Assembly: GCA_026705345.1 (NCBI GenBank)
Contig: JAPPAV010000005.1
Location: forward strand, 1 to 64,000
Direction: 5' to 3'
DNA from: Gammaproteobacteria bacterium
Lineage (GTDB): Bacteria > Pseudomonadota > Gammaproteobacteria > Pseudomonadales > Azotimanducaceae
Length of the DNA stretch: 64,000 nt
In this document: positions 5,656-28,044 of the stretch, piece by piece
How the letters are laid out: every line of letters begins with the position of its first letter
How positions within the stretch are numbered: position 1 is the stretch's first letter
Notes under the pieces: model-generated
Databases searched by the model: none
What the model was told of the DNA's origin: nothing
What the model saw: only the letters and a program-made list of their open reading frames with translations
Position numbers and translations under genes: made by a program

Positions 5656-5660
5656 TCTTG

Positions 5661-6341
5661 TCAGCGATCCGGCGGGTCGACGGGGCGGGGCATTTGAATG
5701 ATCTCGGCCACGGGCCGGGGGCGCGGTGCTTCGCGCTGTTCCTCGTCCGGCTTTTGCTCGACGTCGGGTTCCTCCGACGGAGTGAGGTCGCCGAGTGCCG
5801 GCTTCATCAACGATTCGATCTCGTCCATCGGCGGGAGGTCGTCGAGGCTCTTCAGGTTGAAGTAGTCGAGGAAGGCGCGGGTCGTTCCATAGAGGGCGGG
5901 CCGTCCCGGGGTCTCGCGTTCGCCGACGACGCGAATCCAGCCGCGCTCCAGCAGTGTGCGCATGATGGACTGACTCACGGACACGCCACGGATTCCCTCG
6001 ATGTCGCCTCGCGTGACCGGCTGTCGATAGACGATCAATGCCAGCGTCTCGAACAGTGCCCGGGAGTAACGTGGCGGACGTTCTTCGTAAAGGCGAGAGA
6101 CCCACGGGCTGAATTGTTGCCGTACCTGGAAGCGAAAACCGCTCGCCACGCGGACAAGCTCGAATCCCCGGTCGGCGGTAGCCTCGCCAATCGCGTCGAG
6201 AGCCGCCCGAAGCGCGCCGCGGGAGTTTTCATCCGGCAGTTCGCCGGGCGCGAAGAGTTTGATCAGCCGGTCAATGCTCACCGGTTCGTCCGCCGCGAGC
6301 AGCGCCGCTTCGACGATGCGCTCGATTTGATCGGCCTCCAT
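5661..6341 (-). CDS. scpB: Segregation and condensation protein B
   Basis: ScpB, the winged-helix kleisin-associated subunit of the SMC-ScpAB condensin used in chromosome segregation. About 226 residues. Family features are RIVEAALLAADEPVSIDRL at the N-terminus, ALIVYRQPVTRGDIEGIRG in the first winged helix and LLERGWIRVVGERETPGRP in the second, ending with LDYFNLKSLDDLPP. The C-terminal 45 residues are an acidic Pro-rich tail. ATG 6341 overlaps the scpA stop by one base (TGATG), so the two are translationally coupled. An in-frame GTG at 6344 is an alternative. Confidence 0.95.
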   Translation of the reverse strand: MEADQIERIVEAALLAADEPVSIDRLIKLFAPGELPDENSRGALRAALDAIGEATADRGFELVRVASGFRFQVRQQFSPWVSRLYEERPPRYSRALFETLALIVYRQPVTRGDIEGIRGVSVSQSIMRTLLERGWIRVVGERETPGRPALYGTTRAFLDYFNLKSLDDLPPMDEIESLMKPALGDLTPSEEPDVEQKPDEEQREAPRPRPVAEIIQMPRPVDPPDR

Positions 6342-9423: not shown

Positions 9424-11274
9424 GTGCTCCAGTTCATCGACGTAACGTTGCGCCGCGGCGACAAGATGCTGTTCGACGGCCTCGATCTTACGATCCACGC
9501 TGGCCACAAGGCCGGGGTTGTGGGGCGCAACGGCATCGGCAAGTCGACGCTGTTCGATTTGGTTCGGCGTCGGCTTCTCCCGGAGGAAGGCGAGATCCTC
9601 TGGCCGGCGTCCTGGCGGCTCTCGTGCCTCGAACAGTCCACCGAGCCGTCTTCCCGTTCGGCCCTTGAATTCGTGCTCGACGGCGACACGCGGTTGCGTG
9701 CCATCGAGAGATCCATCGCGAAGGCGGAACGCGCGGAAGACAACCATGCGCTCGGCCACCTCTACTCGGACTTCGAGGATGTCGGCGGCTACGATGCCCC
9801 CGCCCGCGCCGGTGAAATCCTCTCCGGTCTCGGCTTTGACGCGACCGACTTCGGCAAGCCCCATGCGGCGTTCTCCGGCGGCTGGCGCATCAGCCTCAAC
9901 CTCGCCCGGGCGTTGATGACGCCCTCGGAGTTGTTGTTGCTGGACGAGCCGACCAACCACTTGGATCTTGACGCGACGCTGTGGCTCGAGACCTGGGTGC
10001 GCAAGTACGAGGGAACGCTGCTTTTGATCGCCCACGACCGGGACTTCCTCGACCGCAGCATGGGCGAGATCGTCCACTTGGACGACGGCAAGGCCACGAC
10101 CTACTCGGGCAACTACAGCGCCTTCGAACGCCAGCGTGCCGAAGCACTGGAACGCCAGGCGGCGACCTACAAGAAGCAGCAGCGGCGCGTGGCCGAGATT
10201 CACGCCTTCGTCGACCGGTTCCGCGCCAAGGCTAGCAAGGCGCGCCAGGCGCAGAGCCGGCTGAAGGAGCTCGAACGCATGGACCTCCTCGCGCCCGTTC
10301 ACGCCGAACTTCCGTATCGATTCGACTTTACGCAGCCGAAGAAGATCTCCAACCCGACGCTCATGCTCGACGACGCGGCGGTGGGATACGACGGAAAGCC
10401 GGTGCTCAACGGCGTCACGTTGCGCGTCTATCCTAGTGACCGCATCGGCGTGCTCGGCGCCAACGGGGCCGGCAAGACCACCCTCTTGCGCTGTCTTGCG
10501 GGCGAGTTGGCACCGATGGCCGGGACGTCGAGCCGTGGCCAGCACGCAGCCGTCGGCTACTTTGCGCAACACCAGTTGGAGTCACTGGACCTCGACGCTT
10601 CGCCGCTCGATCATTTCGCCGATCCCGAGGACAGCGACGTGCCGGCCTGGACGGACCAGCGGATCAGGGACTATCTCGGCGGCTGGGGTTTCCGGGGCGA
10701 TGACGTGGGACGGCGGGCGCGGACGTTCTCGGGCGGCGAGAAGGCGCGGCTGGTGCTGGCATTGCTTGCCTGTCGGCAGCCCGCGGTTCTGGTGCTCGAC
10801 GAACCCACCAACCACCTGGATCTCGAAATGCGCCAGGCGCTCGCCATCGCCCTGCAGGACTACCGTGGCGCCGTACTGCTGGTCTCCCATGACCGACACC
10901 TGCTAAGGCAATGCGCCGACGATTTCTGGCTGGTCGCCGACGGTGCGGTCAAGCGATTCCGGGATGACCTCGATGCGTACACAGCGCTGCGACGGAGACG
11001 TTCGGCGGTCAAGCGTCCGGCAAGTCGCGACACGCAACCCCGCGGCAGCAGCGGTTCGTTGAGCCGTGAACAGGCCCGCCTCGAACGGCACCTTGAGCAA
11101 CTGAACCGCCGCCTCGAGGACATCGACGCGGGTCTCGGCGAGCCGAACTTGCATGAACGGCCCGACGAACTGGCGCGGCTGGTTGCCGAACGTCGCCGCG
11201 CCGCAGAGGAGGTCGAACGGGCAGAGGCGGCTTGGTTAACCGTTCAGGGGGAAATCGACCGGCTGAAGTGGTAG
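9424..11274 (+). CDS. yheS: ABC-F ATPase, YheS-like
   Basis: A 616-residue ABC-F protein with two ATPase cassettes and no membrane segments; this class acts on ribosomes. Cassette 1: Walker A GRNGIGKST, signature FSGGWRISLNLARAL, Walker B LLLLDEPTNHLD. Cassette 2: Walker A GANGAGKTTL, signature FSGGEKARLVLALL, Walker B VLVLDEPTNHLD. The inter-cassette linker FRAKASKARQAQSRLKELER is the ribosome-interacting arm region. Residues about 530-616 form a charged coiled-coil. The match to E. coli YheS is close through most of its length. It uses a GTG start at 9424. The upstream 136 nt divergent from yciO should contain promoters. Confidence 0.93.
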   Translation: MLQFIDVTLRRGDKMLFDGLDLTIHAGHKAGVVGRNGIGKSTLFDLVRRRLLPEEGEILWPASWRLSCLEQSTEPSSRSALEFVLDGDTRLRAIERSIAKAERAEDNHALGHLYSDFEDVGGYDAPARAGEILSGLGFDATDFGKPHAAFSGGWRISLNLARALMTPSELLLLDEPTNHLDLDATLWLETWVRKYEGTLLLIAHDRDFLDRSMGEIVHLDDGKATTYSGNYSAFERQRAEALERQAATYKKQQRRVAEIHAFVDRFRAKASKARQAQSRLKELERMDLLAPVHAELPYRFDFTQPKKISNPTLMLDDAAVGYDGKPVLNGVTLRVYPSDRIGVLGANGAGKTTLLRCLAGELAPMAGTSSRGQHAAVGYFAQHQLESLDLDASPLDHFADPEDSDVPAWTDQRIRDYLGGWGFRGDDVGRRARTFSGGEKARLVLALLACRQPAVLVLDEPTNHLDLEMRQALAIALQDYRGAVLLVSHDRHLLRQCADDFWLVADGAVKRFRDDLDAYTALRRRRSAVKRPASRDTQPRGSSGSLSREQARLERHLEQLNRRLEDIDAGLGEPNLHERPDELARLVAERRRAAEEVERAEAAWLTVQGEIDRLKW

Positions 11275-11346: not shown

Positions 11347-12690
11347 CTACATTGGGTGACTTGCTTCAGGAGCCGTACCGTGAATGTCGCCGTGCCGATG
11401 TCGGGGGCAGCCCAGACCTTGGGACATCTGCGCGTAGCTGGTGAGTGGCACCGCGCACATCCGATTCCAGTCGGCCTGGTCGATGACCGACTGGTTTACC
11501 AGGTCGATCATGTCGTCGAATTGCTGAAGCGCGTCGCAATCGACTACCTTGGAATCCGCCGCCTTGCGGTGTTGCGGCCAGGTGTGGTCACGGGCGTAGC
11601 GCCAGAATTCACTGTCGTACTTCGAGCCGCAGGAGTAGTGCCAACCCACGAACAGTCCGTAGCAGAGCATGTTCTTGACAAGGAATCGATTGACCACCGG
11701 CGAATCGCGCTCAAGATGCTCTAAAGGGCGGTTCAGCCGTACCTGCAGGACCATCCCGATCTGCAACTGCGCGGACACGATCGCCGTCGCCTCCAACGGT
11801 TCCATGAAGGCGGCCGCGTTTCCTACCCGGGCGATGGCACCGTCGAAGATGCGGCGGTGGACGAAATTGGGGAAGCGAAGCACGGCCCGTTGCTCGAACT
11901 CCGATACGCCGTCAGCGTCAAGGAAAGCGTCGAAGTCGGACTCGACCTCCGCGAGGTCGGTTACGTCGCGGTTGAAGATGTAGCCGTAGGATGTATGGGC
12001 GGTTGGGGGAATGACGAATACCCAACCGTGCGGGCGGGCAACGGCACGGGTATAGGTATGTTGTACGACCGGGCCCTCCTGCGGCTCCTCGATAATCGTC
12101 GGACAGCGGCGGATGACGGCTGTGTTGGTGGGGATAAAGGAAATGTCGATGTGCTCCTGGGGATGCAGTTCCCTGGGAAACCCGCGTGCATCGAAGACCA
12201 AGTCGTAGTGTTCCGATGCCCGGCCTTCGAACTCCACCTCCGCGCCGTCATCCACCCTGGTGATGTCGAGCACCTTCGCGTCGACATGCTGTGCGCGTGT
12301 GCTGTCGTGCAGCAATTCGCCCATCAAATCTGCGGACAGGTGGTAGGCATAGGACACCTGCTGCGGCGTGAAGTAGTGCGTGAAGTCTCGATCGCGCCGC
12401 CCCCATCCCTCGAAGGCGACGCCGTACTTGCGAGTTCCCTTCAGACGCTGCTGGACGGTCTCGTGGGGCAAATCGGTCAGCTTGTGCAACTCCTGGACGA
12501 GGCTCGGCCAACTGCCTTCGCCCACGCCGATGACCGGGATGCGCGAGTCGTAGATGTGGTGCAGTTCGTGAGCGCTGTCGGGGTGTAGGCGCGTGACGCT
12601 CGCGGCGGCGAGCGACCCGGCGGTTCCGCGCCCGACCACGGCGATCTTTCGTAGGGACTTGCTGCCTGGCTGAATCACCCCAAGGGCCAT
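11347..12690 (-). CDS. Flavin-dependent tryptophan-halogenase-like protein
   Basis: A 447-residue FAD-dependent protein of the tryptophan halogenase family. Residues about 15-27 (KIAVVGRGTAGSLAA) form the FAD-binding GxGxxG, followed by VIGVGEGSWPSL, matching the GVGEAT-type motif of PrnA/RebH relatives. The WxWxIP signature appears as WVFVIP, so the second Trp is Phe. GNAAAFMEPLEATAIVSAQL corresponds to the GDAAGFIDPLTSTG segment. It is the last gene of a leftward series after the LolA-like and barrel genes, in the RiPP locus whose precursor ends in Trp. Halogenation of that Trp is inference; the family also includes non-halogenating members. Confidence 0.8.
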   Translation of the reverse strand: MALGVIQPGSKSLRKIAVVGRGTAGSLAAASVTRLHPDSAHELHHIYDSRIPVIGVGEGSWPSLVQELHKLTDLPHETVQQRLKGTRKYGVAFEGWGRRDRDFTHYFTPQQVSYAYHLSADLMGELLHDSTRAQHVDAKVLDITRVDDGAEVEFEGRASEHYDLVFDARGFPRELHPQEHIDISFIPTNTAVIRRCPTIIEEPQEGPVVQHTYTRAVARPHGWVFVIPPTAHTSYGYIFNRDVTDLAEVESDFDAFLDADGVSEFEQRAVLRFPNFVHRRIFDGAIARVGNAAAFMEPLEATAIVSAQLQIGMVLQVRLNRPLEHLERDSPVVNRFLVKNMLCYGLFVGWHYSCGSKYDSEFWRYARDHTWPQHRKAADSKVVDCDALQQFDDMIDLVNQSVIDQADWNRMCAVPLTSYAQMSQGLGCPRHRHGDIHGTAPEASHPM

Positions 12691-14983: not shown

Positions 14984-15235
14984 ATGCGAAGCGGCGATGA
15001 GATGCTGCAGCAGATTGTCGAGAAGTCTGCCTTGGACGCGAACTTCAGGGAACAGCTTCTCGCAGATCCAAAGACCACGATCAGCGCGGAATTGGGCGTG
15101 ACGATTCCCGAGTCGATGACAATCAAGGTCCACGAAAGCGACATGCAGACCGTGCATCTTGCGTTGCCACCGGACCCGAACATCACCGAGGAGCAACTCG
15201 AAGCGGTCTCGGCCGGCCTCTGCTGCTGCTGGTAG
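14984..15235 (+). CDS. NHLP-type RiPP precursor peptide with predicted core LCCCW
   Basis: An 83-residue peptide with a nitrile-hydratase-alpha-like leader (NHLP family): LDANFREQLLADPKTTISAE, LGVTIPESMTIKVHE, then VHLALPPDPNITEEQLEAVS. The leader ends AVSAG at residues 74-78, the usual double-glycine-type processing site, leaving L79-C80-C81-C82-W83 as the core. Three adjacent Cys suit the azoline-forming YcaO enzyme nearby. The adjacent NHLM C39 exporter fits leader removal. It is on the plus strand alone, flanked by minus-strand genes. Five 45-bp repeats start at the base after its stop, then a terminator. A five-residue core is unusually short, so the cleavage position is the least certain point. 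Confidence 0.88.
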   Translation: MRSGDEMLQQIVEKSALDANFREQLLADPKTTISAELGVTIPESMTIKVHESDMQTVHLALPPDPNITEEQLEAVSAGLCCCW

Positions 15236-15468
15236 GGTTCTTTACTGCGAGGGGCACGCCCCTCGCGCACCCCGGCTGAGGGCTCTTTATTGCGAGGGGC
15301 AAGCCCCTCGCGCACCCCGGCTGAGGGCTCTTTATTGCGAGGGGCAAGCCCCTCGCGCACCCCGGCTGAGGGCTCTTTATTGCGAGGGGCAAGCCCCTCG
15401 CGCACCCCGGCTGACGGCTCCTTCCTGCGAGGGGCACGCCCCTCGCGCACCCCGGCTGAGGGCTCCTG
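15236..15468 (+). repeat. Five tandem 45-bp family C repeats directly after the precursor stop
   Basis: Copies at 15236-15280, 15281-15325, 15326-15370, 15371-15415 and 15416-15460 have an exact 45-bp period, followed by an 8-nt start of a sixth. Each holds the palindrome GCGAGGGGC-AA-GCCCCTCGC (AC in copies 1 and 5). Copies 2 and 3 are identical. Continuing the precursor frame past its TAG gives an uninterrupted 15-residue repeat (GSLLRGASPSRTPAE type) five times, ended by TGA at 15467-15469. There are no unique spacers, so it is not a CRISPR array. Confidence 0.93.
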
Positions 15469-15547: not shown

Positions 15548-16669
15548 TCAGAGAGGGACACCGGCGGAAAGCACCATGAACACGTAGGCTTTCGCTTTTT
15601 GGAGCTGGTCTCCGGCGATGACCAGCTTGATGTGGTGAATGCCGCGTAGCAGCACGAAACGGCCGGACTTCCCGAATAGCGTCGTCGGTTTCGAAACCCA
15701 GGCGCCAAGCGCGGCAAGCTTCTCTGGCACGACTAGGTCTTCATGGCCCAGGGCATCAAGGAACGGATCCCAATCGGTCAGGCCGTCGAGCCAATAGCGC
15801 GAGTCCTTCGTATATCTCTGTTTGACGATGAGGGTAAGGCCGAGCGTCGGGCCAAGACCCTCTTCCCGCACGTCGATGTTCGCCCCGGTCCGCACAATGT
15901 CGGCGCGCTCCTTGAAGCGTGAGATCACGGCATCGACCGCCGAGGTGGCCCCTGGCCATCCCGTGTCCTGCAAATAGGAACAGATCTGCTGCGGCGATCT
16001 GAAACCCATGATGGCCAAGCGGATCGACCGTGAACGGGACGGAAAGACACCGAACGAATCCATGCGCGTGTCTTCCGGCTGCGCCAGGTAGGCGCGTTCG
16101 ACGTTCTTCCGCTCGGCCTTGTTCGACTCCCAGCCCACGCAGGCGACGAGCGCATCGACCACTTCGCCAACGTCGTCGGCCTGACCGCACGCGCCCCTAA
16201 TCGGGCGTTCGCCGGGACGGAGGAACATGCCCGGAAACGAACCCATCCCGTCTCCTGCCGAGCCGATGTCGTACTCGAGCATCAACTTGCGTCCGACAAT
16301 CTCGCGCAAAGGCGAGCCGTCGGCATCCATTTGCCTGAACAGGCGCACGATCGCTCGCGCAGTCTCATCCGCCCTGTCGGTTCGTGCCTTCCTTTGAAAA
16401 AACTCTGCGGGCGGGGTTCCGCTGGCCAGGGACGCGCCGAAGTCCGCCACGGGTTCGGGTTCATGTAGCGGCAGTTCGAAGCCGAACGGCAGTGCGGCCA
16501 TTGTGATGGGCAGTTTCCCGGCACATTCGAGTACGCGCTCCCATTGGTGGTCTCCGATGAGAACGCCCGCGATCCTATTTCGAAAATGCCCAAGCAGATC
16601 ACCCATGGTGCCGCCCTCGTCGGCGAGACGGTCCTGGGTAAGGGTGATTGCCTCGTCGATGTCCATCAC
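15548..16669 (-). CDS. Unrecognised 373-residue protein of the RiPP locus
   Basis: I do not recognise a family. It is soluble-looking, without signal peptide or membrane segments. Notable stretches are GMFLRPGERPIRGACGQADD, FPSRSRSIRLAIMGF, GLTLIVKQRYTKDSRYWLDG and, near the end, RGIHHIKLVIAGDQLQKAKA. The start codons ATG-ATG at 16669/16666 overlap the stop of the YcaO gene, so it is translated with the cyclodehydratase. Position and coupling suggest a modification enzyme or recognition partner for the LCCCW peptide. No dehydrogenase of the SagB type is present in the locus, and this protein does not look like one. Confidence 0.7.
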   Translation of the reverse strand: MMDIDEAITLTQDRLADEGGTMGDLLGHFRNRIAGVLIGDHQWERVLECAGKLPITMAALPFGFELPLHEPEPVADFGASLASGTPPAEFFQRKARTDRADETARAIVRLFRQMDADGSPLREIVGRKLMLEYDIGSAGDGMGSFPGMFLRPGERPIRGACGQADDVGEVVDALVACVGWESNKAERKNVERAYLAQPEDTRMDSFGVFPSRSRSIRLAIMGFRSPQQICSYLQDTGWPGATSAVDAVISRFKERADIVRTGANIDVREEGLGPTLGLTLIVKQRYTKDSRYWLDGLTDWDPFLDALGHEDLVVPEKLAALGAWVSKPTTLFGKSGRFVLLRGIHHIKLVIAGDQLQKAKAYVFMVLSAGVPL

Positions 16670-18975
16670 GCGATGACCGGCGCGGGATTCAGATCGGCTT
16701 CGGCGATCGGGGACTCGCGCAAACCCATGCCGACCGGCACCTCGTACAGACGCCCGGGCGCGAATCTCGCCCAGAAGTGACGCATGCCGGGCACGATGAC
16801 CCGCGCCACGGGCATGCCGATGTCGGGCCGAGTCTGGTCCAGTACGAGGAACTCCATGCCCCGAGTTTCGACGAGCGTGCGGCAGTATTCCACGTCCTCG
16901 CGGGTGTCCGCCGATTCGATCACCCGATACTGCGAAGCCTTCCTAAGCGGCTCCTCGGCCCGGGGCGCCAGCCAGGAACAATCGGCTAGCCGGGCCGTCC
17001 TCCACCACCAAAGGGCCATCGGATCATCGATCATCGGTCGAGAATCGGCGACGCCGGGACGTGGCAGCCAGGTGAGGCACTGGTTCAGTTCGCAAATCGC
17101 GCGCAGGGCCGCTATGCGCGGGTCGGCGTGGGTACCGGCGCCGTAGATGATGTCCTCGGTTGGGGCGTCCGGACGGCGGGAGAGGGCAACGAACGTGGGA
17201 ATGCCGATGTCGGAGGTGACGTCGAGCATCCACACCTCCCGCTCGTAGGTGGCGTAGTGGCCCGGGGCCGAGGCGAGATAGTCGTCGTCGAAACTCGCAA
17301 GATCGACCGCAGGCATTTGCAGCCGGTTGTACCACCAGATGGCGAACGCATCGCGCTCGGCCAGTTCATAGAATCCCTGCAGGATGGCTTCTTCCAACGT
17401 ATTGCCGGCGGCGCAACCGTTTGAATCGGCGATCCGGTCCGCGGAGCCGCGCTGTTCGGCCGACATGCTGTAGAGCATCGAGGTCGGCAGGTAGCGATGC
17501 CGCTCGTTTGTGAGCGACCACACCGGCGTCCAGTCGATTTCCGCCTCGGGGTCGAATCGTGGCGGGACGACATTGTATGGATGGCCTTTCGCATTGATGC
17601 CCGAGGCGTTGTCGAACTGGTTTTCGCTGAAAAGCTGCGCATCGTTGGGGTGGATCGCTTCTTCTTGCCCGTCGAACTCGACGAACCGCTTGCGGATGCG
17701 GATCTCGTCGCCGTGGTAGGCACCCGAGTAGCGCTCGACGGCCTCGCAGAGCGCGCTGACCTCGGATTGCTCGCGGGTGCTGCCCTTGCCCGCGCTCTTG
17801 CTGCGCAGGCTGCGCCGCAAGGAACTCAAGCTCCGGCTTCGCATGCCCAGGTTGCTGCCGGCCCAATAGACATGCAGCCAGGAATCGTCCTCGTCGGTGG
17901 TGCGCCTGAGCCACGTCACCACACCGCTGATCGGACTCACCAAGTGGCGGTACCTGGCCAAGGTGACTTCCGGTGCCACGGTGCGCGAGCCGCCGCTCGT
18001 GCTGTGCGCTTTGGGACTTGCGCCGAGACAGATGGGAACCGGCGCTCGGTCCGGTCGATGCAACGCTTCGTCGCCGCAGGCGGGGCACTGGGGTCGGCGT
18101 ATTACCCGGTGCCGCGAACTGGCGAATGTGCCGACGTTCAGCGTGATCGCGTGGTCGTGGATCGGGGACGTATCGCCGAGCACCACCCATTTGACGATCT
18201 CCGCCGCGATCAGACCGACTATGGCTTCCGCCACCGAGGGCTCTGCGGCGAAAGGCTTGAATGCGGCCTCCTCGCCGGCAATGTTGCGCAGGAAACTGTG
18301 GACTTCCTGGTGGCTACGCAGGCGGTAGGCCAAGCAGTCCCAGCAGGGCCCATCGGCGCGAAAGACGGGGCCGAACAGTGCTTCCATGCCGTGCGGTCGC
18401 ACCAGTACCCAGGGCTCCCCCGCTTCAAGCTGGCGCCGATTCACTTGGGCAAGACGTGCTTCGAGATAGTCTTGTGAAACGACAACGGTGATATTCGGTT
18501 GCCGAGTACCCACAAGGGTGCCGCTACGCTCCAGAAGCCGCGTTAGTCGACCGTCATCGCCTTCGACCGCGATCTCCGACTCCTTGAGCCGCTGTTCGAC
18601 CCAGCATGGCGATGCGCCGAGCGATGACCAGTAGGCCGCCCGGCGACGCTCCATGCCGTGATCCGCCGATACGACGTAGCCTTTCGCCGAGAGCGAAGCC
18701 AGTGTGGTCAGAACATCGCCGGCAGCATGGGTGCTCTCGAGGGTCGCGACGATCTCGTCTAGTGGATGTCGACCGAGGAGCGGCAGCAAATCCTGATTGA
18801 GCTTCCCGTGCAGCAGCGTATTGAACGACTCGGAGAACAGCAGCGTCTGCTCCACGCCGATGTCGTGGAATTGCAGGTGCGGCGATAGCGCGGGAAGTTT
18901 GACGAGACCTTGGTCCGCCGGAGTCGTCCTGGTCAATATTCCCCGTCGGGGATTCGGTTGCGTCTCGCTTGGCAT
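16666..18975 (-). CDS. TOMM cyclodehydratase, ThiF-like and YcaO fusion
   Basis: A 769-residue fusion. The N-terminal half (to about residue 330) is the E1/ThiF-like leader-binding partner with zinc pairs CWDC and CPAC. The C-terminal half is YcaO, with EQSEVSALCEAVERYSGAY, SNGCAAGNTLEEAILQGFYE, LAERDAFAIWWYNRL and RAICELNQCL carrying the ATP-binding Glu residues. The C-terminus is Pro-bearing (NPAPVIA), near the PxPxP tail of azoline-forming YcaOs. Such enzymes turn Cys, Ser or Thr side chains into azolines with ATP; here the three core Cys are the obvious targets. It starts 31 nt after the AlkB-GlnE gene. Confidence 0.92.
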   Translation of the reverse strand: MPSETQPNPRRGILTRTTPADQGLVKLPALSPHLQFHDIGVEQTLLFSESFNTLLHGKLNQDLLPLLGRHPLDEIVATLESTHAAGDVLTTLASLSAKGYVVSADHGMERRRAAYWSSLGASPCWVEQRLKESEIAVEGDDGRLTRLLERSGTLVGTRQPNITVVVSQDYLEARLAQVNRRQLEAGEPWVLVRPHGMEALFGPVFRADGPCWDCLAYRLRSHQEVHSFLRNIAGEEAAFKPFAAEPSVAEAIVGLIAAEIVKWVVLGDTSPIHDHAITLNVGTFASSRHRVIRRPQCPACGDEALHRPDRAPVPICLGASPKAHSTSGGSRTVAPEVTLARYRHLVSPISGVVTWLRRTTDEDDSWLHVYWAGSNLGMRSRSLSSLRRSLRSKSAGKGSTREQSEVSALCEAVERYSGAYHGDEIRIRKRFVEFDGQEEAIHPNDAQLFSENQFDNASGINAKGHPYNVVPPRFDPEAEIDWTPVWSLTNERHRYLPTSMLYSMSAEQRGSADRIADSNGCAAGNTLEEAILQGFYELAERDAFAIWWYNRLQMPAVDLASFDDDYLASAPGHYATYEREVWMLDVTSDIGIPTFVALSRRPDAPTEDIIYGAGTHADPRIAALRAICELNQCLTWLPRPGVADSRPMIDDPMALWWWRTARLADCSWLAPRAEEPLRKASQYRVIESADTREDVEYCRTLVETRGMEFLVLDQTRPDIGMPVARVIVPGMRHFWARFAPGRLYEVPVGMGLRESPIAEADLNPAPVIA

Positions 18976-19006: not shown

Positions 19007-21403
19007 CTATGCGGATGCGAGAAGCGTATCGATTTGCACGGCAGCACGGGTCGCGGTTTCGGTGACGGCCGCCTCCAGCGCACCGAAATCCTCGTGCCCG
19101 CAGGCGCTCGCAACCAAGGCTCTGACTCTTGGCCCCGCCGCGGTCGCGTCGAATCCCTCCTCGCCGATGAGCCGCATGATGCCCTGTAGGTCCCGCCACA
19201 TGTCCGCAGCCTGCGCCAGTGACTCGGTGCCCGCGCCAGTGAACACCTGGGCCGCCGTTGGTGCGGAGTCGCCTTGGCCGGTTCCGGTGGCCGTCAACTG
19301 CAGGAATCGCGCGGTCCGCTCGACATCCACTAGGCCGCCACGCATGCGGGCGAACGTAGAGACGCCGGTTTCGGCGCGATCATCCGGTGGACTGCGCAAC
19401 TGGGCGACGAGGGTGTTGTTCGCACTCCATTCGGCGAGGACTTCGCGCCAGGCTTCCTCGATCCGTTGCCCGATTTCCGAATCGCCGCATTCGAACACGC
19501 AGCGCGTCCTGGCGACGACCGGGATCTGCCCGGGCGGAGGATTGCGACAACTCTCGGCTAGTTCGGATAGCGGCAGCGCCAGGAGGAAGTCCGCATCGGG
19601 CGGGATCGGCGAGAACAACAGGCTGTCCTGCGCCAAGTCGGTCAGCGTCTCCCGGAACCGCCGACACAGGCGTTCGTTTTCGCCGAACTGCCAGCCGTCG
19701 TGGACAAACAGCATCTCTATTTCCGCACCCGGATAGACCTCACGGCTAGCGAGGTCGCCCAAACACATCGCAGCGACCCCGCCCGCCCGCAAAGGTCCCA
19801 TCCGTTCGACGAAGTCCTCGACCACGGCCGCAAGCACGGCGGAAATCGACGCGTCGGCAAGATTCGACAACGCGATCTTCGCCTCGGCCGGCGACAGGTT
19901 TCCACGCAACACGTGCATACCGATCTGAAACGCCTTGTCGTTCGACCAGTTCCGTACGATCTCAGCGGAATCACCTGCATCGGCCGTAGGCAGCTCCGCA
20001 ATCAGGTCTTTCATTTCCTGGACGCCCATCTCATGCGTCCAATAGAGTCTCGCAAGTCCACGCCGTGCAATCGACTCGGTTTCCTCGTCTATTCCGAATC
20101 CCTTCGGCAGATCCAGATCGGTGAATTCTCGGTCCTGAAGGTTGTCGAGAAGCTCCGGGTTGCGTTCGATCCACTTGGCGAGCCGGGGAGCAGCGCCGAA
20201 AATTTCGACGATTGCCTCGAAGGCGTCGGGTCGCGCGGCGGTGATCGGGCTGTCGTAGGCGCTCCAGTCGTCGATCCCCGGATAGAAATGCTTGCGCCAT
20301 TGATCTACCAATGGGTCCATCTTCTCGAACCATCGCTTCGGTCGCAGCACGATGTTCATCATGTCGGCGTAGGTTCCGGGCAGTTCCGGGGATTCGGCGG
20401 AATCACGAATCTGGAGCAGCGGATAATGCCGGCTCGCCATCGCGTGATGATCCGCATGGCGCTGCATGTTGAAGAACATCCAGTTGCTGAACTTCCAGTC
20501 GGCGCTCCAGGAATGACGTGGCATCACCTTTTCCCAACGACCGTTGGGCAGGCGAACCCGGCGCAGGCCGTAGTGCTGGAAATAGTTGCTGATCTTCATC
20601 GAGAACACGCAGCAGAGACCGAGGAAGGCAAAGACCAGAACCGCCCAGATCCCGCTCATCCAGAACACCAGTGCATACCAGAACGCGACGAAAATCCCGT
20701 ACCGCCAGAACGGGTTGCTGTAGTGCCACACCGGCAGACGGCGCCTTGCCAAGCGTTCGGCGGCGGACTTCCAGGAATGCGTCAGATTGCTCACGACCTC
20801 CCGGGGGAAATACCGCCAGAAACTCTCTCCCTTCGGAGCGGATCCCACGTCATGCGGCGTGCCGACCTTGGCATGGTGGATATAGAGATGCTCCGTGGCG
20901 TATTGCGGATAGGAGGCCGACGCAAGAAGGAATTCGCCGAGGCGCCTCTCCCAGCTCGTACGTCGGTGAATCAGTTCGTGGCCGACGACAAATACTGCCT
21001 GGGCTTCCATAGTCAGAAGAATGACCAGGACGACGTCTTCCCAGATTGCGAACTGATTTGCGACGAGGATTTGCCACATGCCGAAAATCAACGTCGGCGG
21101 CCACAGAAACGCCCAGGTCCAGACCGGAAGGTTGTGCCACAACAGGCGGCGTTCCGGCGTTTTGGCCGGATCCATGTTGCGTCCGTCGAGTCCTAGTACC
21201 TTGTCGAGCGGGCCTGCGACACTCATGAAGAGGAATGCCGGCAGCAACCACCAGCCGCCATGGATCACGGCGAGGAGAAGCAAAGGGAAAATGCCCAATG
21301 GCAGATAGTGCGGAAGGGCGTTTCGAATCGACGGCTGGATGTACTGCGGGGTATCAGCCTTGTTCGGGTCTATGCCACCACTTACGGCTGAGTCTTCCGA
21401 CAT
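19007..21403 (-). CDS. AlkB-type di-iron hydroxylase fused to a GlnE-like nucleotidyltransferase domain
   Basis: A 798-residue fusion. Residues 1 to about 390 are a membrane alkane-monooxygenase-like domain with HELIH (142-146), HLYIHH (172-177), NYFQHYG (His 277) and RHADHH (315-320), plus transmembrane stretches at about 35-75, 95-140 and 235-265. From about 390 it resembles the adenylyltransferase GlnE: IFGAAPRLAKWIERNPELLD, AFQIGMHVLRGNLSP, LGDLASREVYPGAEIEMLFV and FARMRGGLVDVERTA. The catalytic Asp pair of GlnE appears as E561 and E563, so activity may be lost. I use ATG 21403, which excludes 26 upstream residues without support. Substrate unknown; the locus suggests the peptide or a lipid. 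Confidence 0.85.
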   Translation of the reverse strand: MSEDSAVSGGIDPNKADTPQYIQPSIRNALPHYLPLGIFPLLLLAVIHGGWWLLPAFLFMSVAGPLDKVLGLDGRNMDPAKTPERRLLWHNLPVWTWAFLWPPTLIFGMWQILVANQFAIWEDVVLVILLTMEAQAVFVVGHELIHRRTSWERRLGEFLLASASYPQYATEHLYIHHAKVGTPHDVGSAPKGESFWRYFPREVVSNLTHSWKSAAERLARRRLPVWHYSNPFWRYGIFVAFWYALVFWMSGIWAVLVFAFLGLCCVFSMKISNYFQHYGLRRVRLPNGRWEKVMPRHSWSADWKFSNWMFFNMQRHADHHAMASRHYPLLQIRDSAESPELPGTYADMMNIVLRPKRWFEKMDPLVDQWRKHFYPGIDDWSAYDSPITAARPDAFEAIVEIFGAAPRLAKWIERNPELLDNLQDREFTDLDLPKGFGIDEETESIARRGLARLYWTHEMGVQEMKDLIAELPTADAGDSAEIVRNWSNDKAFQIGMHVLRGNLSPAEAKIALSNLADASISAVLAAVVEDFVERMGPLRAGGVAAMCLGDLASREVYPGAEIEMLFVHDGWQFGENERLCRRFRETLTDLAQDSLLFSPIPPDADFLLALPLSELAESCRNPPPGQIPVVARTRCVFECGDSEIGQRIEEAWREVLAEWSANNTLVAQLRSPPDDRAETGVSTFARMRGGLVDVERTARFLQLTATGTGQGDSAPTAAQVFTGAGTESLAQAADMWRDLQGIMRLIGEEGFDATAAGPRVRALVASACGHEDFGALEAAVTETATRAAVQIDTLLASA

Positions 21404-21488
21404 GGAAGCTTCTCTGGGTTGTCCGTTGATCGCTCGAATCGATGCTAGCACCGGGCAGGGGGACCCGCAAACTAGCTGCAATGCGCCC

Positions 21489-22802
21489 TCAGCCTGGAGC
21501 GTTCGCTTGAAAAAGCCCGGCGAGACGCTCTAGGGCCTCGACGCAGAATGCAGTGGTGATGGCCTCGCCGCCATGTCCGATCTGCCCGAATTGGCCCCAC
21601 TTCAAGGATTGGTCGCCGAACGCGAGAAACTCCGGCCAGCTCCCGTCGTCACGTTGGGAACATAGGAGTCGTTCCAGTTGGCGTTTCGCATCGATGCGTT
21701 CTAGGGCGCCGATGTTGTCGAGCGCCGACACGGCCTGGGCGGTCTGCAGGATGTTGCCAAAGTCACCGTTCTCGTCGCGCAGATCCAGGATGCCGTCGGC
21801 AAGTACGGGGCGGAGTCCCGGGAGCGCGCCTTGAGCGCTAACCATGGTGCGGGCGATTGCGTAGCAGATCGCGACGGTGTCGGGATACCACTTGGACGAG
21901 CCGTCGAGACGTCCTTCGCGGACTAGGGCCGCAAGCCACCGCTGTGCACCCTTGGTGTCGGGCCGGTCGCCTAGGTAGGCGATGGCATTCGCGTTGACGA
22001 CTGGATCGGCTTCGATTCGGAACGGCGCCACGACATCGGGTTCATCTTCGTCCAGTACCCAGGTCATGAACCGCCCTTCCTCGTCCCGGTTTGCCAGCAT
22101 TCGCGGGACGTTCCTTCCGAGCAGAACCCAGGGTTGGGTCCTGACCACCAATGAACACAGGGCGCTGCTGTCCAGATCCTGGGGTAGATGGCGGTAGTAG
22201 CGCCACAGGCCGGGGTATTCGATCGTTTCGGCAAGATACGCCTTGGTGGCGGTGCGGATCGCCTCGGCACGGGCGTCGTGGGAACGTTCGAGTGCGAGTA
22301 CGCAAAGCGCCGAAACAAACGGCGGTCTCTCGAAATGCCGGGGGATGTCGGAATCCGCGACATTGAACCGAATGCAGTGCCAGGCGCCATCTTCGCCGAT
22401 AGTAGATTCTAGGAAACCAAGACTGCGGCCAATGCTCTCCCTAGCCGCCTCGACGACGGCCTCCGAGGCAACCGCGCTAGCTCGCGCAGCGACGGGGGGA
22501 CGCATTGGCGGTGCGGGGTCGTGCATCGTCTTCTTGAGAAACTCGAGAGAGGTCGCCCCGGCTCTCGCCTCCTCGCGTTCGGCGTCGCTGAGTTTGCTGC
22601 GCGGCGGAAGTACGACATGGGTTGCAGCATGGGTTTCCTCGTGTACGTGGAGCTCATGGTCTTGGGGCAATGCCACGCCGAATTCGCTCTCGATGGTCTC
22701 TTTGGGGTTGACGAGAAGACGTTCGCGAAAATCGCTGTCCCTGCCGGCCCGATTCGCCACGACATCGGCAAGATCGATGGGTTTCTTCATTGCTCTTGGC
22801 AT
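21489..22802 (-). CDS. NHLP-type leader fused to an alpha/alpha-toroid (terpene cyclase/prenyltransferase-like) domain
   Basis: A 437-residue protein. Residues 22-67 (SDFRERLLVNPKETIESEFG, VALPQDHELHVHEE, THVVLPP) align with the NHLP leader of the precursor at 14984. A possible processing site EEARAG ends at residue 82. The rest is a helical repeat domain with QW-like motifs (GEDGAWH, SQRDDGSWPEF, HGGEAITTAFCVEALERL) as in squalene-hopene cyclases and prenyltransferase beta subunits. An acidic DEDE cluster (WVLDEDEPD) recalls the DxDD of class II cyclases, unproven. The start overlaps the ABC gene stop (TGATG). Either an enzyme docked to the leader-binding machinery or an exported cargo. Confidence 0.82.
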   Translation of the reverse strand: MPRAMKKPIDLADVVANRAGRDSDFRERLLVNPKETIESEFGVALPQDHELHVHEETHAATHVVLPPRSKLSDAEREEARAGATSLEFLKKTMHDPAPPMRPPVAARASAVASEAVVEAARESIGRSLGFLESTIGEDGAWHCIRFNVADSDIPRHFERPPFVSALCVLALERSHDARAEAIRTATKAYLAETIEYPGLWRYYRHLPQDLDSSALCSLVVRTQPWVLLGRNVPRMLANRDEEGRFMTWVLDEDEPDVVAPFRIEADPVVNANAIAYLGDRPDTKGAQRWLAALVREGRLDGSSKWYPDTVAICYAIARTMVSAQGALPGLRPVLADGILDLRDENGDFGNILQTAQAVSALDNIGALERIDAKRQLERLLCSQRDDGSWPEFLAFGDQSLKWGQFGQIGHGGEAITTAFCVEALERLAGLFQANAPG

Positions 22803-25800
22803 CAAGCGATCTGCCTTCTGACGAGTTCCCGAAAAACCCCCTCGACCTCCATGAGTTCCGTGAACGAGCCGCTCTGTACGACCTTCCCGGCCTCCAACAC
22901 GTAGATGCGGTCAGCCTGTTCCAGCGTTGATAGACGGTGGGCGATGACGATCCGGGTGGAGGTCAGCGCGGTGAGATTCCGCATGACCTTGGCTTGGCTT
23001 TCGTTGTCCAGCCAGTTGGTCGCCTCGTCGAACATCATGATCCGGGGACCGCCGATCACTGAGCGAGCGATCGTGATCCGCTGACTCTCGCCGCCTGATA
23101 GGACGCTGCCGCTGGTGCCCACCATGGTCATCATGCCCATGGGCATGGCCTTGATCTCCGCCTCCATTTCAGCGAGCCGCACCGCCTTCCATACGTCCTC
23201 GGTCGGCACGCCGTCGTGGTGACTGACCAGGTTGTCCCAGAGATCCTGGGGATGGAGTCCCACCGACTGCGGCACGGCGCCGATCTGCCGACGCAGCTGC
23301 TTCAGGTTCAGGTGGCGAAGGTCCCGTCCGTCGTAGTACACCGCACCGGCGGTGGGCCGGTCGATGCCAAGGGCGAGCCGGAACAAGGTGCTCTTGCCGG
23401 CCCCGGACTCGCCGGCAATGGCGACGAACTCGCCGGGACGGGCGCGGATCGTGACGTCGTCGAGTATCAGCGGGCCGTCGGGGTCGTAGCGGAAGGAAAT
23501 ACGGTCGAAGAGCACTTCGCCCCCGAGATAGTCCACGGGCTCTTTCATGCGCGGGGCAAGCCCCTCGCGCTCCCCCGCTGAAGGCTCTCCTTCGACCTCG
23601 GCCTCAGCCACCGCGGCCAGCAGCGGGCGCATCTGGTCGAACGCGGGTAGCGTGGCGGCAACGGTGCCGAAGGACTCGCCGAGCCTGGCGACGGCTGACT
23701 GGAATGCGATGAAGACGGTGTAGACGACGAGGAAATCGCCGACGGGGACAGTGCGATCGCCCACCGTTACCACCGCGAAGAGGAGTACGCCCCCGGCTAG
23801 GAAGGGGAGTGCGGCCCCAAATGCCCGGGAATGGCCCTCCAGTGCACCGAGGTCGAGTTCCGCGCGCTTCTGCTCGCGGTAGTCCCGCGCCCAGATGGCG
23901 AACGCCGATCCTTCCGCATTCTCCACCCGCAGCTTGGTGATACCGGCCACGATCTGGAACAGACGGCCGGCGACTCGACGCCCGGCGCTGATCATCCGCC
24001 CATGGGGGGAAATCTGGCGCATCCCGAGGATCACCGTGACAAGCAGCGAAACGAGGCTGAAGACCAGTGCGCCGACCCCGAGGGCGGCATCGTAGAAGAA
24101 GATGACGGCAAAGACCGGAAGCAGGAAAACCACCGACAGCAGGCTGTCGGCGACCACTCCCTGCAAGCCATCGCGGAGATTCTGGAATGTCATTCCCGAC
24201 ATGGCCAGATCCCCGGACGGATGGCGATGCAATGAGCTCGGCGGCAGGCGCATGAGGCGGTCCCAGAAGGCGGCTTCGACCCGCGATGCAGAGCGTCCCT
24301 CGAGTCGCATCATGGCCGTGCTTTGAAGCAGGTGCAGCGTGGCCCCGAGCAGGCCGAAGCCGGCCACCGCCACGGCCACGGCGTAGAGCGCGCCGGCGCT
24401 TCCTCCTCCCGCCACATGGTTCGCAACGAAGCCAAGCGCAAGTGCCGGCAGTAGCTTGATCAGACCGCCGGGAAGCCCGGCGATCACCAGCCTTACCAGA
24501 TCCGTGGCGGATCCATGCAGAGCGATCCTGAGCAGGTCCGCCGGTTTTGCGTGCCCTGCGGGCAGTGGCCGGTAGAACACCCAAGCTTCGTTCGCCAGTG
24601 CGTTGGCACCCGTTGCCGTAATCCGGGTGCTCCGTTTGCTTACCGGGTCGACCTCCCGGTAGGGACCGAACGTTCCCGGCAGTAGCGCGACCGGCTGGCC
24701 GTCCTTTTCGCGGAATGCCAGCATCGCGTTGCTGTCCCCGAGCCACCAGTTGTCCTGGGCGTTGAGCCGCACGCGCCGGGCGCGCACCCCCGATGCATCA
24801 AGAACGTCGCGGAGACCGATGGGCGCGTCGTAGGGGCGACCCTTGTGGTCGCCCGCGCCGTGCGTGCCCGAGGGTGCCGGGATTTTGAAGTCGATGCCTT
24901 CATGGCGGCCGATGACTTGGAGCGCGTCGGTCAGGGCCGTGTCCTCGATGTCGGCGTCCCGGCCAACGGGCAGGTCGTAGATATTGAAGAGCCGCTGCCG
25001 CGCAACTTTCTCGGCGGCGCGCCGGCTCATCGTACGCGCGCGTTCGAGATTCGCCTCATCGACCACGGCCAGTCGGCGGTTGAGGCGTTCCAAGGTAAAC
25101 GCAACCCCGTGAAACGCGGCGAGTGCCGGCAGCAGAAGGCTTTCCCGGGCCAGCGACTCCGTCGACTTGCCCGAGAGCGTTGTTTCGTCGAACACGGAGA
25201 GCCAGCTTGTCCGTGTCAGCGGTATGACCGCATCGCCACCTCGGCCTGCCTCGGCCTGCTCCGCCAGGTCGACGATATCCATGAACGTGCTTGCGCCGGG
25301 GGGCGGTTGGGGAACCCACACCACGCCGCGCCGGACCGACAGCGTGCAGGGCGGTGCCAGGTCAAGCGTCAGGCCGGGCTCGGCCAGCGCCGTTGGACGT
25401 GGAATGCGACCGACGAACCGCGAGAGCGCATCGGTTATCGCGGTGAGCCAGGTATCGGTCTGTTCCGCCAGTTCCGCGGGGTCGACCTCACCGAGCCTGG
25501 AGGCCGGCAGCCGCCGGAGCAGGGTGCCCGGCAATCCCTTGGCGACGAGGCTCAGGGTCGTGCCTTCATCGCCGTCCTGTTCGTCCGCTGCGACACCAGG
25601 CAGCAACCAGCCGGATTCGCGGCGCAGCAAATGCCGGGGCGGCGCCTGCTCCACCCCGTCCTTGAACTCGACCAGGAACAGATTGACGGCGCCCTGATCG
25701 ATGAACCAGGCGCTGTCCGGATCGTCGAGTTCCACCGGTAGGTTGCCGGCGCAGGGCACGGACGTACCGGAACCAGCCGCGAGTTCGGCCAGCGATGTGA

Positions 25801-25822
25801 ATTGGCGCTTCGTGTCGTCCAT
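22802..25822 (-). CDS. NHLM-type ABC transporter without peptidase domain
   Basis: A 1006-residue NHLM ABC protein: N-terminal cytoplasmic domain of about 400 residues, transmembrane domain (about 420-720) and C-terminal ATPase with Walker A GESGAGKSTL, signature LSGGESQRITIARS and Walker B IMMFDEATNWLD. The DEATNWLD form is typical of this NHLM subunit. Two palindromic elements are inserted in frame: a B element near residues 323-331 (GDHKGRPYDAP) and a C element near 745-762 (EPSAGEREGLAPRMKEP), both outside the core folds. It overlaps both neighbours by a few bases. It should pair with the C39 transporter to export leader-bearing products. Confidence 0.92.
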   Translation of the reverse strand: MDDTKRQFTSLAELAAGSGTSVPCAGNLPVELDDPDSAWFIDQGAVNLFLVEFKDGVEQAPPRHLLRRESGWLLPGVAADEQDGDEGTTLSLVAKGLPGTLLRRLPASRLGEVDPAELAEQTDTWLTAITDALSRFVGRIPRPTALAEPGLTLDLAPPCTLSVRRGVVWVPQPPPGASTFMDIVDLAEQAEAGRGGDAVIPLTRTSWLSVFDETTLSGKSTESLARESLLLPALAAFHGVAFTLERLNRRLAVVDEANLERARTMSRRAAEKVARQRLFNIYDLPVGRDADIEDTALTDALQVIGRHEGIDFKIPAPSGTHGAGDHKGRPYDAPIGLRDVLDASGVRARRVRLNAQDNWWLGDSNAMLAFREKDGQPVALLPGTFGPYREVDPVSKRSTRITATGANALANEAWVFYRPLPAGHAKPADLLRIALHGSATDLVRLVIAGLPGGLIKLLPALALGFVANHVAGGGSAGALYAVAVAVAGFGLLGATLHLLQSTAMMRLEGRSASRVEAAFWDRLMRLPPSSLHRHPSGDLAMSGMTFQNLRDGLQGVVADSLLSVVFLLPVFAVIFFYDAALGVGALVFSLVSLLVTVILGMRQISPHGRMISAGRRVAGRLFQIVAGITKLRVENAEGSAFAIWARDYREQKRAELDLGALEGHSRAFGAALPFLAGGVLLFAVVTVGDRTVPVGDFLVVYTVFIAFQSAVARLGESFGTVAATLPAFDQMRPLLAAVAEAEVEGEPSAGEREGLAPRMKEPVDYLGGEVLFDRISFRYDPDGPLILDDVTIRARPGEFVAIAGESGAGKSTLFRLALGIDRPTAGAVYYDGRDLRHLNLKQLRRQIGAVPQSVGLHPQDLWDNLVSHHDGVPTEDVWKAVRLAEMEAEIKAMPMGMMTMVGTSGSVLSGGESQRITIARSVIGGPRIMMFDEATNWLDNESQAKVMRNLTALTSTRIVIAHRLSTLEQADRIYVLEAGKVVQSGSFTELMEVEGVFRELVRRQIA
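23537..23590. repeat. Family C element in frame inside the NHLM ABC transporter
   Basis: One copy with palindrome GCGGGGCAAGCCCCTCGC, in the opposite reading sense to the rluB and gspD copies. In the transporter it encodes PSAGEREGLAPRMKEP, between the transmembrane and ATPase domains, without breaking the frame. Confidence 0.88.
24829..24855. repeat. Family B element in frame inside the NHLM ABC transporter
   Basis: The plus strand starts CGTAGGGGCGACCCTTG and continues with GTGGTCGCCCG, a palindrome around CTTGT. Read on the minus strand as coding sequence it gives GDHKGRPYDA within the N-terminal cytoplasmic domain. Confidence 0.85.
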
Positions 25823-28044
25823 CAACCCGACTTCACCAGCTTGAAGTAGGTGCCGTCCTCGTCCTCGATTAGCGCGTCGTGGGTGCCACGCTGCACTTGG
25901 ACGCCCGCCTCAAGCACGATGATCTCGTCGCAATCCCGGACGGTGGAGAGCCGATGGGCCACGATCAGGCAGGTGACGCCCCGCCGTCGCAGCGCATCGT
26001 CGACGAATTCCTCCGTCGCGGCGTCGAGAGCGCTGGTTGCCTCGTCCAGAATGATCACGGTGGGATTGCCGACCAGCGCCCGGGCGATCTCCAGCCGTTG
26101 CCGCTGGCCGCCGCTGAAGTTCGCGCCGCCTTCCTCGACCAGCGTCGCGTAGCCCTGCGGCCTGAGCAGGATTTCGTGGTGGATACTGGCATCTCGCGTG
26201 GCGGCGAAGATGGCCTCGTCCGGAACGGCCGGGTTCCATAGGGTGATGTTGTCCCGCAGGGAAGCGGAAAAGAGGACGACGTCCTGGTCGACCATGGAAA
26301 TGGACCGTCTCAGCACGTCCTCGGGAATATCGTCCCGCCGATGGCCATCGAAGAGGATTTCGCCGGACCAGGGTTGATAGATCCCGGAAACCAGCCGTGC
26401 CAGGGTCGACTTGCCGGACCCGCTGGGTCCGACCACGGCAACCCGCTGACCTGGCGTGATCACGAGGTTGAAGTCCTTGATGAGGGGCGGTTTGCTCTTG
26501 TTGAACCCGAATGTGACGTCTCGGAGTTCCAGCCGGCCGGCCAGTTGGAGCCGGCCTTTGAACGTGGGGATCGACGCCGATTCCGGACTTCGACGGGCGA
26601 AAACGGGGTCTTCGGCGGTGTTGGAGATGTCTTCGAGGCGTTGCAGGTCCGTTTCGAGCGCCTGGCGTTTGTCGGCGAATTCCAGGAAGCGCCCGATTGG
26701 GGCCAGGAACATCTCCGCCAGGATATAGAACGCAGCGAGCGTACCGAGGCTCATGGCTTCCATCATGACGAAAGTTCCTCCTAGACCGAGGATCACCGCA
26801 CTGCGAAGTGCGGCGATCAGGCCCGGGAGCGCCGTGTTGACGGAGCCCAGTTCGGAATAGAGTTGGCGGGCCTCAAGTTCGCGAGCCTGCTGACCACTCC
26901 AGCGCGAGAAAAACCGGTCGTCGGCGCCCGTCATTCGCAGGTTGTCCGCCGACTGAAGCATCTGCATGCCGACGCCAATCAGCAAACCTTGTTCACGCCT
27001 CATCGCCTGGCTCCGAACGGCTCGGAGCCGGTTGAGAAAGTGGGCCAGCGCACCGTGAAGGAGGGCGAGGGCCAGCACGGCCAGCGTGAGGATGGGGTCG
27101 TAGGCCACCAAGGCGGCCAGCAGCACCGCGCTCATCGCCATGTCGACGACGAGGACGAGAAACTCCTCCGTGAAGTTCTTGGCGACTCGGTCGGTGGACG
27201 AGACGCGGTCGGTCAGATCGCCCACCAGCCGGTGTTCGAAGAACTCCACCGGCAACCGCAGCAGCCTTGACAGCCCTTGGCTGTAGCCAATCACCGAGAT
27301 ACGTATCGAGAGGCGTTTTAGGAATCGGTGCTTGAGCAGGGACAGGATGTATACCAGGACGCCGGCGCCAAGCAGCGCTGCCACTAATCCGCCCCAAGGT
27401 CCATGGCTACTGAGAACATCGTCCACGAACGCACCCAAGGATGCGGGTACAACCAGGGAGAGCAACGTCAACATGAGCCCGCAGGCAATCATCCCGGTGA
27501 GCACGCGCCAAGATCCTGCGAACAAGCCGCCCAATTGACTGAACAAGCCGGGTCGCTCGCCGCCGGACTTGAAATCGTCGCCGGGCTTGAAACGCAACGC
27601 GATGCCGCTGTAGCCCTTGTTGAACTCTTCCGCGGAAATCCTGCGCCGCCCCGTCGACGGGTCATTGAGATAGAAATGCCGTGAATCGAAGCCTTCGACG
27701 ATGAGAAAATGACTGAACTGCCAAAACACGATCACCGGCAGATCCAGCTTCTTCAGTGCCTCGGCGCGCACGCTGAGTCCACTGCATTCGAGACCGTAGT
27801 ATCTCGATGCGCGCATGATGCTCGCGGCGCTGCTGCCGTCGCGGCTCACCTCGCATTTCTCACGCAATTCGGTGAGCGGCGCCCAGCGCCCGAAGTAGCC
27901 CAATAGGCTGCCGAGGCAGGCGGCGCCGCACTCCGATGCGTGCATCTGCAGGAGAATCGGTGTGCTTACCCGTTGTTTCGTGGGTGCGCCGTCCCGGTGC
28001 CCGGGACGCTTTTGCTTGGCCCCGTTCGAGGCGCGCCGTGGCAT
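25822..28044 (-). CDS. NHLM-type ABC transporter with C39 peptidase domain
   Basis: A 740-residue peptidase-containing ABC exporter. The N-terminal C39 domain has the catalytic Cys in QMHASECGAACL, His in FSHFLIVEGF and Asp in NDPSTG. A six-helix transmembrane domain spans about 165-450. The ATPase has Walker A GPSGSGKST, signature FSGGQRQRLEIARAL and Walker B VIILDEATSALD. It should cut after the double-glycine-type site of NHLP leaders and export the core. Its stop overlaps the start of the partner ABC gene, and it begins one base after the HlyD-like gene, so the three form one transcript. Confidence 0.95.
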   Translation of the reverse strand: MPRRASNGAKQKRPGHRDGAPTKQRVSTPILLQMHASECGAACLGSLLGYFGRWAPLTELREKCEVSRDGSSAASIMRASRYYGLECSGLSVRAEALKKLDLPVIVFWQFSHFLIVEGFDSRHFYLNDPSTGRRRISAEEFNKGYSGIALRFKPGDDFKSGGERPGLFSQLGGLFAGSWRVLTGMIACGLMLTLLSLVVPASLGAFVDDVLSSHGPWGGLVAALLGAGVLVYILSLLKHRFLKRLSIRISVIGYSQGLSRLLRLPVEFFEHRLVGDLTDRVSSTDRVAKNFTEEFLVLVVDMAMSAVLLAALVAYDPILTLAVLALALLHGALAHFLNRLRAVRSQAMRREQGLLIGVGMQMLQSADNLRMTGADDRFFSRWSGQQARELEARQLYSELGSVNTALPGLIAALRSAVILGLGGTFVMMEAMSLGTLAAFYILAEMFLAPIGRFLEFADKRQALETDLQRLEDISNTAEDPVFARRSPESASIPTFKGRLQLAGRLELRDVTFGFNKSKPPLIKDFNLVITPGQRVAVVGPSGSGKSTLARLVSGIYQPWSGEILFDGHRRDDIPEDVLRRSISMVDQDVVLFSASLRDNITLWNPAVPDEAIFAATRDASIHHEILLRPQGYATLVEEGGANFSGGQRQRLEIARALVGNPTVIILDEATSALDAATEEFVDDALRRRGVTCLIVAHRLSTVRDCDEIIVLEAGVQVQRGTHDALIEDEDGTYFKLVKSG

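Follow-up and report, generated by a model that had tools for sequence, protein, structure and literature searches.

An LCCCW proteusin precursor in a gammaproteobacterial genome: very probably SrpE of the published srp system

Introduction

What would a peptide precursor yield whose leader is of full NHLP length and whose core amounts to five residues? This question is raised by an open reading frame in the window, the term we use for the whole stretch of DNA analysed (64,000 nucleotides of contig JAPPAV010000005.1, assembly GCA_026705345.1, a member of the Gammaproteobacteria). An initial annotation, made from the letters alone, had seen in it a product with a core shorter than those of known NHLP products. 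We conclude that the precursor is real, but that it is already known, as the srp system of marine-sponge bacteria has been published. The comparisons presented below leave us nearly certain that the locus corresponds to the srp biosynthetic gene cluster and the reading frame to its SrpE precursor. The primary paper on srp, a sponge-derived RiPP proteusin, is reportedly that of Nguyen et al. (JACS, 2021), and its title is said to describe the system as highly distributed in sponge microbiomes.

The Precursor and Its Conservation

The reading frame, at 14984..15235 on the forward strand, is intact, with an ATG start, a TAG stop, and 83 codons, just as it had been read initially. The encoded peptide ends in ...EEQLEAVSAGLCCCW, with a leader (residues 1-78) closing on AVSAG and a core (residues 79-83) of LCCCW, followed by the stop. 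The NHLP leader model TIGR03793 matches residues 6-78 (E = 3e-19) with 68.6 bits, above the curated cut-off of 50.9, placing the precursor among the NHLP peptides, or proteusins, and bearing out the leader type first proposed, which is also stated for SrpE in the published passages. This match, along with the LCCCW-stop ends of the relatives and the published SrpE core, underlies our designation of the 83-aa product as an srpE-type NHLP precursor. Its best relative among the solved structures is an NHLP chimera, PDB 8TB1 (5e-11), identified in the relevant part of PMC12455567 as an MprE7 chimera.

A scan of a collection of species genomes produced 162 relatives, the best 80 of which were analysed; chosen as the most similar, they are biased toward the window's own LCCCW core. 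All of these 80 possess 83 codons and end in LCCCW, and the core is directly followed by a stop (TAG in 45, TAA in 32, TGA in 3). The results named at the outset as damaging, a conserved processing site upstream or a frameshift extending the core, are absent from the best 80 of 162: no frameshift or longer core was found, and Trp is followed by the stop in 80/80. The 81 precursor DNA sequences (80 relatives and the window) all differ from one another, and synonymous variation is seen in the core codons of the best 80 of 162, with TGC/TGT at 71/9, 76/4, and 78/2 for the three Cys. In the same set 39 of the 83 positions are invariant, SAGLCCCW among them, and leader segments 60-65 and 69-74 are likewise invariant. 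When the 80 relatives are compared to the window, the median pN is 0.06 versus a median pS of 0.49; dN/dS, computed for 75 of the 80 pairs (the other 5 lacked a finite dS and were dropped), has a median of about 0.07. The precursor is under strong purifying selection, and the conservation of its LCCCW-stop end is far beyond chance. In the family to which the window belongs, a match to the precursor at E up to 0.001 is present in 55 of 206 genomes, a count that also takes in matches to the NHLP-fused protein described below and further weak, partial ones. The match spans residues 1-83 in 35 genomes, and in all 30 of them whose loci were read the peptide ends in LCCCW.

That the gene is a precursor in decay, a vestige, or a product of faulty MAG assembly is hardly conceivable in the light of these data. 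Some of the relatives do reside on short contigs or are split, one example being genome G033, matching on two contigs, but this notion is contradicted by the dN/dS of about 0.07, by a length and stop intact in 80/80 (best 80 of 162), and by the window's neighboring genes, which translate without internal stops. As to the processing site, the boundary initially drawn between AG and LCCCW is the one stated for SrpE in the published work, in the part that describes the precursor. A true cleavage site further upstream, resulting in a product longer than LCCCW, is unlikely. It would fit the invariance of segments 60-65 and 69-74 in the best 80 of 162, and the published passages on SrpE show no isolated natural mature product. 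However, it is in these segments that the Pro-rich and L(X)4L elements lie, which, according to the pertinent passages of PMC10858898, serve enzyme binding in the SrpE leader. Moreover, the invariant SAG stands directly before the core in 80/80 of the best 80 of 162, the TIGR03793 match ends at residue 78, and relatives possessing other cores diverge directly after AG or GG. The 80-locus comparison backs both the core LCCCW and its processing boundary by conservation.

Beginning at the stop codon of the precursor is a repeat array (15234-15465) of approximately five tandem copies, 45 bp each, GC-rich, and with a palindromic core GAGGGGCAAGCCCCTC. A similar repeat is found at 5538-5648, and another lies near 23550-23600, inside the ABC2 gene described below, where it is read through in frame (EPSAGEREGLAPRMKEP); given these further copies, the element looks like a dispersed palindromic repeat. 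The genome of the window also encodes a second, distinct NHLP precursor (G000:C82:5236-5457; loci L002 and L139), with the C-terminal end GDTDWQNHPIFRD, near which ABC transporter matches 36-45% identical to ABC2/ABC1 are found.

The Gene Cluster

The neighbors of the precursor, all on the reverse strand, are of the kinds initially described (YcaO/ThiF-like, NHLM C39 exporter, AlkB-like, and halogenase), as judged by NCBIfam and Pfam models. A putative SrpI-type flavin-dependent peptidyl Trp brominase is encoded at 11347..12690 (PF04820 tryptophan halogenase, 6e-45). A conserved 373-aa protein (15548..16669), whose gene overlaps the YcaO gene by a few bases, has no NCBIfam or Pfam match and no sequence relative in the PDB; a profile search assigned it to no Pfam family convincingly, the one match, weak and chance-like, being confined to one of 27 members. 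This protein is found in 66 of the 80 related loci (best 80 of 162), and the 26 of its 59 complete orthologues that were aligned are 65-81% identical to the window's. The predicted SrpC-type cyclodehydratase, a fusion of leader-binding/ThiF-like and YcaO parts (16666..18975; TIGR03604 2e-83, TIGR03882 2e-41, PF02624 8e-96), is the sole YcaO match found in the window's genome, and its presence parallels that of SrpC in srp. Next are a fusion of an AlkB/fatty-acid-desaturase-like membrane protein with a GlnE-like region (19007..21481; PF00487 2e-27, PF03710 1e-7), and a fusion of an NHLP leader with a terpene-cyclase-like, probably alpha-toroid, protein (21489..22805; TIGR03793 3e-13, PF13243 6e-4). 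Two transporter genes follow, one for an NHLM export ABC transporter permease/ATPase subunit, ABC2 (22802..25825; TIGR03797 5e-193, below the curated cut-off), and one for an NHLM export ABC transporter with a C39 peptidase, ABC1 (25822..28044; TIGR03796 4e-248, slightly below the curated cut-off; PF03412 2.5e-33), the presumed leader-removing exporter. No azoline dehydrogenase or oxidase was detected by NCBIfam and Pfam models among the eight cluster proteins scanned, as had been remarked at the start, and this agrees with the thiazolines reported for SrpC.

The gene content was counted in the 40 of the 80 loci that possess the full 20,249 bases, using matches of more than 45% identity, as ABC1 and ABC2, and also the NHLP-toroid and the precursor, cross-match at lower identity; simple counting over all 80 loci overstates ABC1 and the toroid. 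Of these 40 loci, whose fixed flanks exclude some genes, 38 contain YcaO and 38 ABC2; the NHLP-fused protein is encoded in 37, the 373-aa protein in 35, and AlkB-GlnE in 33, with lower counts for the halogenase (26) and ABC1 (20). Both a YcaO and a halogenase are present in 38 of the 80 loci (best 80 of 162), many of which are incomplete contigs. A filter for orthologues (complete reading frame, length near that of the window's protein) retained 29 of 45 matches for the halogenase, 54 of 65 for YcaO, 59 of 66 for the 373-aa protein, and 32 of 60 for the toroid.

Relation to the Published srp System

Identity with srp was judged by core, motif, and residue numbering. The core of SrpE is given as LCCCW in the passages of PMC10286304 and PMC10858898 that deal with it, identical to the core in the window. 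The passages on srp in PMC10286304 describe the YcaO protein SrpC as turning the three Cys of SrpE into thiazolines, and SrpI as brominating the C-terminal Trp at indole-6, with the leader required, so that both the three thiazolines and the terminal Trp of the initial proposal were already in print. The same passages report that purification of SrpC was unsuccessful and that partially modified product mixtures were obtained, and describe thiazol(in)es for the foreign MprC/MprD pair; LCCCW was brominated in vitro behind a chimeric leader after MprC/MprD had installed the rings, and trithiazoline SrpE is considered by the authors the likely physiological substrate (PMC10286304). The srp sequences are stated there to be deposited under BioProject PRJNA694437.

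SrpE carries a motif, NLTEEQL, of the L(X)4L type, at residues 66-72, and both Leu67 and Leu72 mattered for SrpI, according to the portion of PMC10858898 on leader recognition. The window possesses NITEEQL at exactly 66-72, in the same numbering; the difference is Ile67 versus Leu67, and this position is I or L among the relatives (best 80 of 162). For SrpI, Lys84 is named as the catalytic residue (PMC10858898), and Tyr102 and Tyr110 as self-brominated, with LysC peptides of 81-135 and 85-135 (PMC10286304, PMC10858898, in the passages on SrpI). The halogenase of the window has the corresponding residues, K88, Y106, and Y114, at a constant offset of +4, and K84 and K139 at +4 relative to the LysC sites that these peptides imply. 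Across 29 halogenase orthologues of nearly full length, K88 and Y114 are each kept in 29/29 and Y106 in 24/29, while the LysC-site lysines are poorly kept (K84 in 14/29, K139 in 18/29). What the window and srp, as far as published passages describe it, have in common are thus the gene kinds (an NHLP leader, a YcaO cyclodehydratase, and a flavin halogenase acting on a C-terminal Trp), the core, and the key residues, along with a wide spread over phyla. With the core identical, and the numbering of motif and halogenase matching, there is little doubt that the window's cluster is srp, and the window contributes one further intact srp locus.

Two elements of the initial annotation need revision on this basis. 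The statement that known NHLP products have longer cores does not hold, as LCCCW is exactly the published SrpE core, and novelty of the core is thereby ruled out. The halogenase was correctly noticed, but its role was under-read: as an SrpI-type enzyme, for which bromination of Trp at position 6 is obligate, it has a central tailoring function rather than being an optional addition. The idea that went with these elements, of a novel class of NHLP product whose core would be short without precedent and which would chelate metals, appears very improbable. The three adjacent Cys and the very short core are truly present, and metals could, as a matter of general knowledge, be bound by adjacent thiazolines, a purely chemical argument for chelation. 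However, a system with this core, cyclodehydratase, and brominase is already in print, the published passages on SrpE contain no chelation data, and no receptor or metal-uptake family was found among the eight cluster proteins scanned.

For the srp-type pathway, maturation in this organism may be envisaged as follows. The YcaO protein would bind the leader (residues 1-78) through its leader-binding domain and cyclodehydrate C80-C82 into three adjacent thiazolines. The SrpI-type brominase would bind the L(X)4L-like motif of the leader (I67...L72) and brominate the C-terminal W83 at indole-6, after which the C39 ABC exporter would cleave following Ala-Gly and export a five-residue bromotryptophan trithiazoline. 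Thiazoline formation and leader-dependent bromination have been reported for SrpE/SrpC/SrpI of other clusters and would apply here by analogy; cleavage and export are suggested by the likeness of the transporter to NHLM C39 exporters, and any further tailoring may involve the AlkB-GlnE, 373-aa, and NHLP-toroid proteins.

Other known systems resemble srp in part, as far as the published descriptions go. The brominated lanthipeptides of MppI/MppE (PMC11791876, in part) also involve Trp halogenation in a RiPP, with a leader-dependent MppI, but the substrates are lanthipeptides and the leader of MppE is Nif11-like. MibH, of NAI-107, likewise halogenates Trp in a RiPP, but its substrate is a lanthipeptide, and it is described as acting after leader removal. 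We take NstC and NstD to be the enzymes linked to nostatin. Azole proteusins of the nostatin A type (PMC11583998), compared by partial description only, share an NHLP precursor and azoline/azole formation, but lead to another product. The mpr system (MprE1-10/MprC/MprD), in the passages of PMC12455567 that describe it, shares an NHLP leader with a YcaO cyclodehydratase, but differs by ten precursors, by an azoline oxidase, MprD, and by two to six rings, and the SrpE leader is not accepted by MprC.

Distribution

The best 80 of 162 loci belong, by the submitters' titles, to Pseudomonadota (48), Acidobacteriota (19), Gemmatimonadota (8), and, with one locus each, Rhodothermota, Binatota, Myxococcota, and Nitrospirota, with one further locus without a phylum. 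This spread over seven named phyla agrees with the wide distribution in sponge microbiomes that the title of the primary paper announces. In a quick tree of YcaO (55 rows: the window, along with 54 of the 65 loci in which YcaO was matched), phyla are interleaved, with 7 phylum changes versus a least possible 4; shuffles give a mean of 16.7, far above the count found, so that phylum and tree agree in good part. The remaining mixing fits horizontal spread, though mis-binned contigs could give a similar picture. The relatives are MAGs of mostly uncultured lineages, with no sponge named in their titles, and no link to sponges was found in the literature for one named relative, 'Versatilivorator'; for the window, a sponge origin is something that we only infer. 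On viral contigs, none of 20 pattern matches to the precursor was confirmed, and five plasmid records carry precursor matches, all below 60% identity.

A Fusion of an NHLP Leader and a Terpene-Cyclase-Like Protein

The NHLP-fused protein (21489-22805) scores 49.3 bits with TIGR03793, just below the cut-off of 50.9, and its PF13243 match is also below the respective cut-off. With its profile, a match to a drimenol synthase chain is obtained (7e-7, over positions 207-426), suggesting that the protein is probably a terpene-cyclase-like toroid, docked via its own leader. The protein is found in 60 of the 80 related loci (best 80 of 162), some cross-matches included. In an alignment of the window's protein with 23 of 32 complete orthologues, an AG-like boundary is followed by a conserved segment, SLEFLxKTMxDPAPP, where a core would stand. 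The toroid may perhaps dock on the shared modification and export machinery, as a leader-guided enzyme or as a client.

Other Short Cysteine Cores on Related Leaders

Less similar precursors with the same type of leader carry other very short Cys cores. One example is LCCCL (L018/L133, G003), whose contig also bears an LCCCW cluster with a halogenase (L132). Other examples are MCCCL (L015/L134, G005), MCCCGI, carried by a second precursor in both L119 and L130, and RCCC (L142), from another family of the window's order. Locus L131 (G202:C21) encodes three NHLP precursors, with cores GGECIC (5423-5677), VCQC (9958-10206), and LCACM (17373-17621), and G202, its genome, also carries an LCCCW precursor. 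Alongside the three precursors, this locus encodes a homologue of the 373-aa srp protein (34% identical) and an MNIO (MbnB/TglH/ChrH) enzyme (PF05114, 2e-92) whose partner is of the DUF2063/NGO1945 type. No SrpI-like halogenase was detected at 1e-10 in the stretches L131, L133, and L134, and in L133 and L134 a FAD_binding_4 oxidase adjoins the precursor. In a set of papers other than the primary srp paper, a search for the four Trp-less cores returned nothing relevant by title.

Taken jointly, these observations allow a tentative proposal, which we hold to be possible rather than probable, that SrpE is a member of a wider family of ultra-short Cys cores in which bromination is optional, and to which the NHLP-toroid of srp may add a leader-docked enzyme or client. 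In such a family, one type of NHLP leader would be combined with a Cys pattern serving as a constant handle, with the Trp-less cores LCCCL, MCCCL, MCCCGI, and RCCC in genomes where LCCCW may or may not be detected as well, and with VCQC, GGECIC, and LCACM beside an MNIO enzyme in place of YcaO. Compared with srp itself, the NHLP-toroid fusion may be less familiar, and so may the ultra-short Cys cores that lack Trp or are associated with an MNIO. Tandem arrays of NHLP precursors are also observed, in L135 (G204) and L136 (G205), with 13 and 16 matches per whole genome, respectively, and with variable, His-rich C-termini, ending, for example, in PLPHFHP or PPPHTH.
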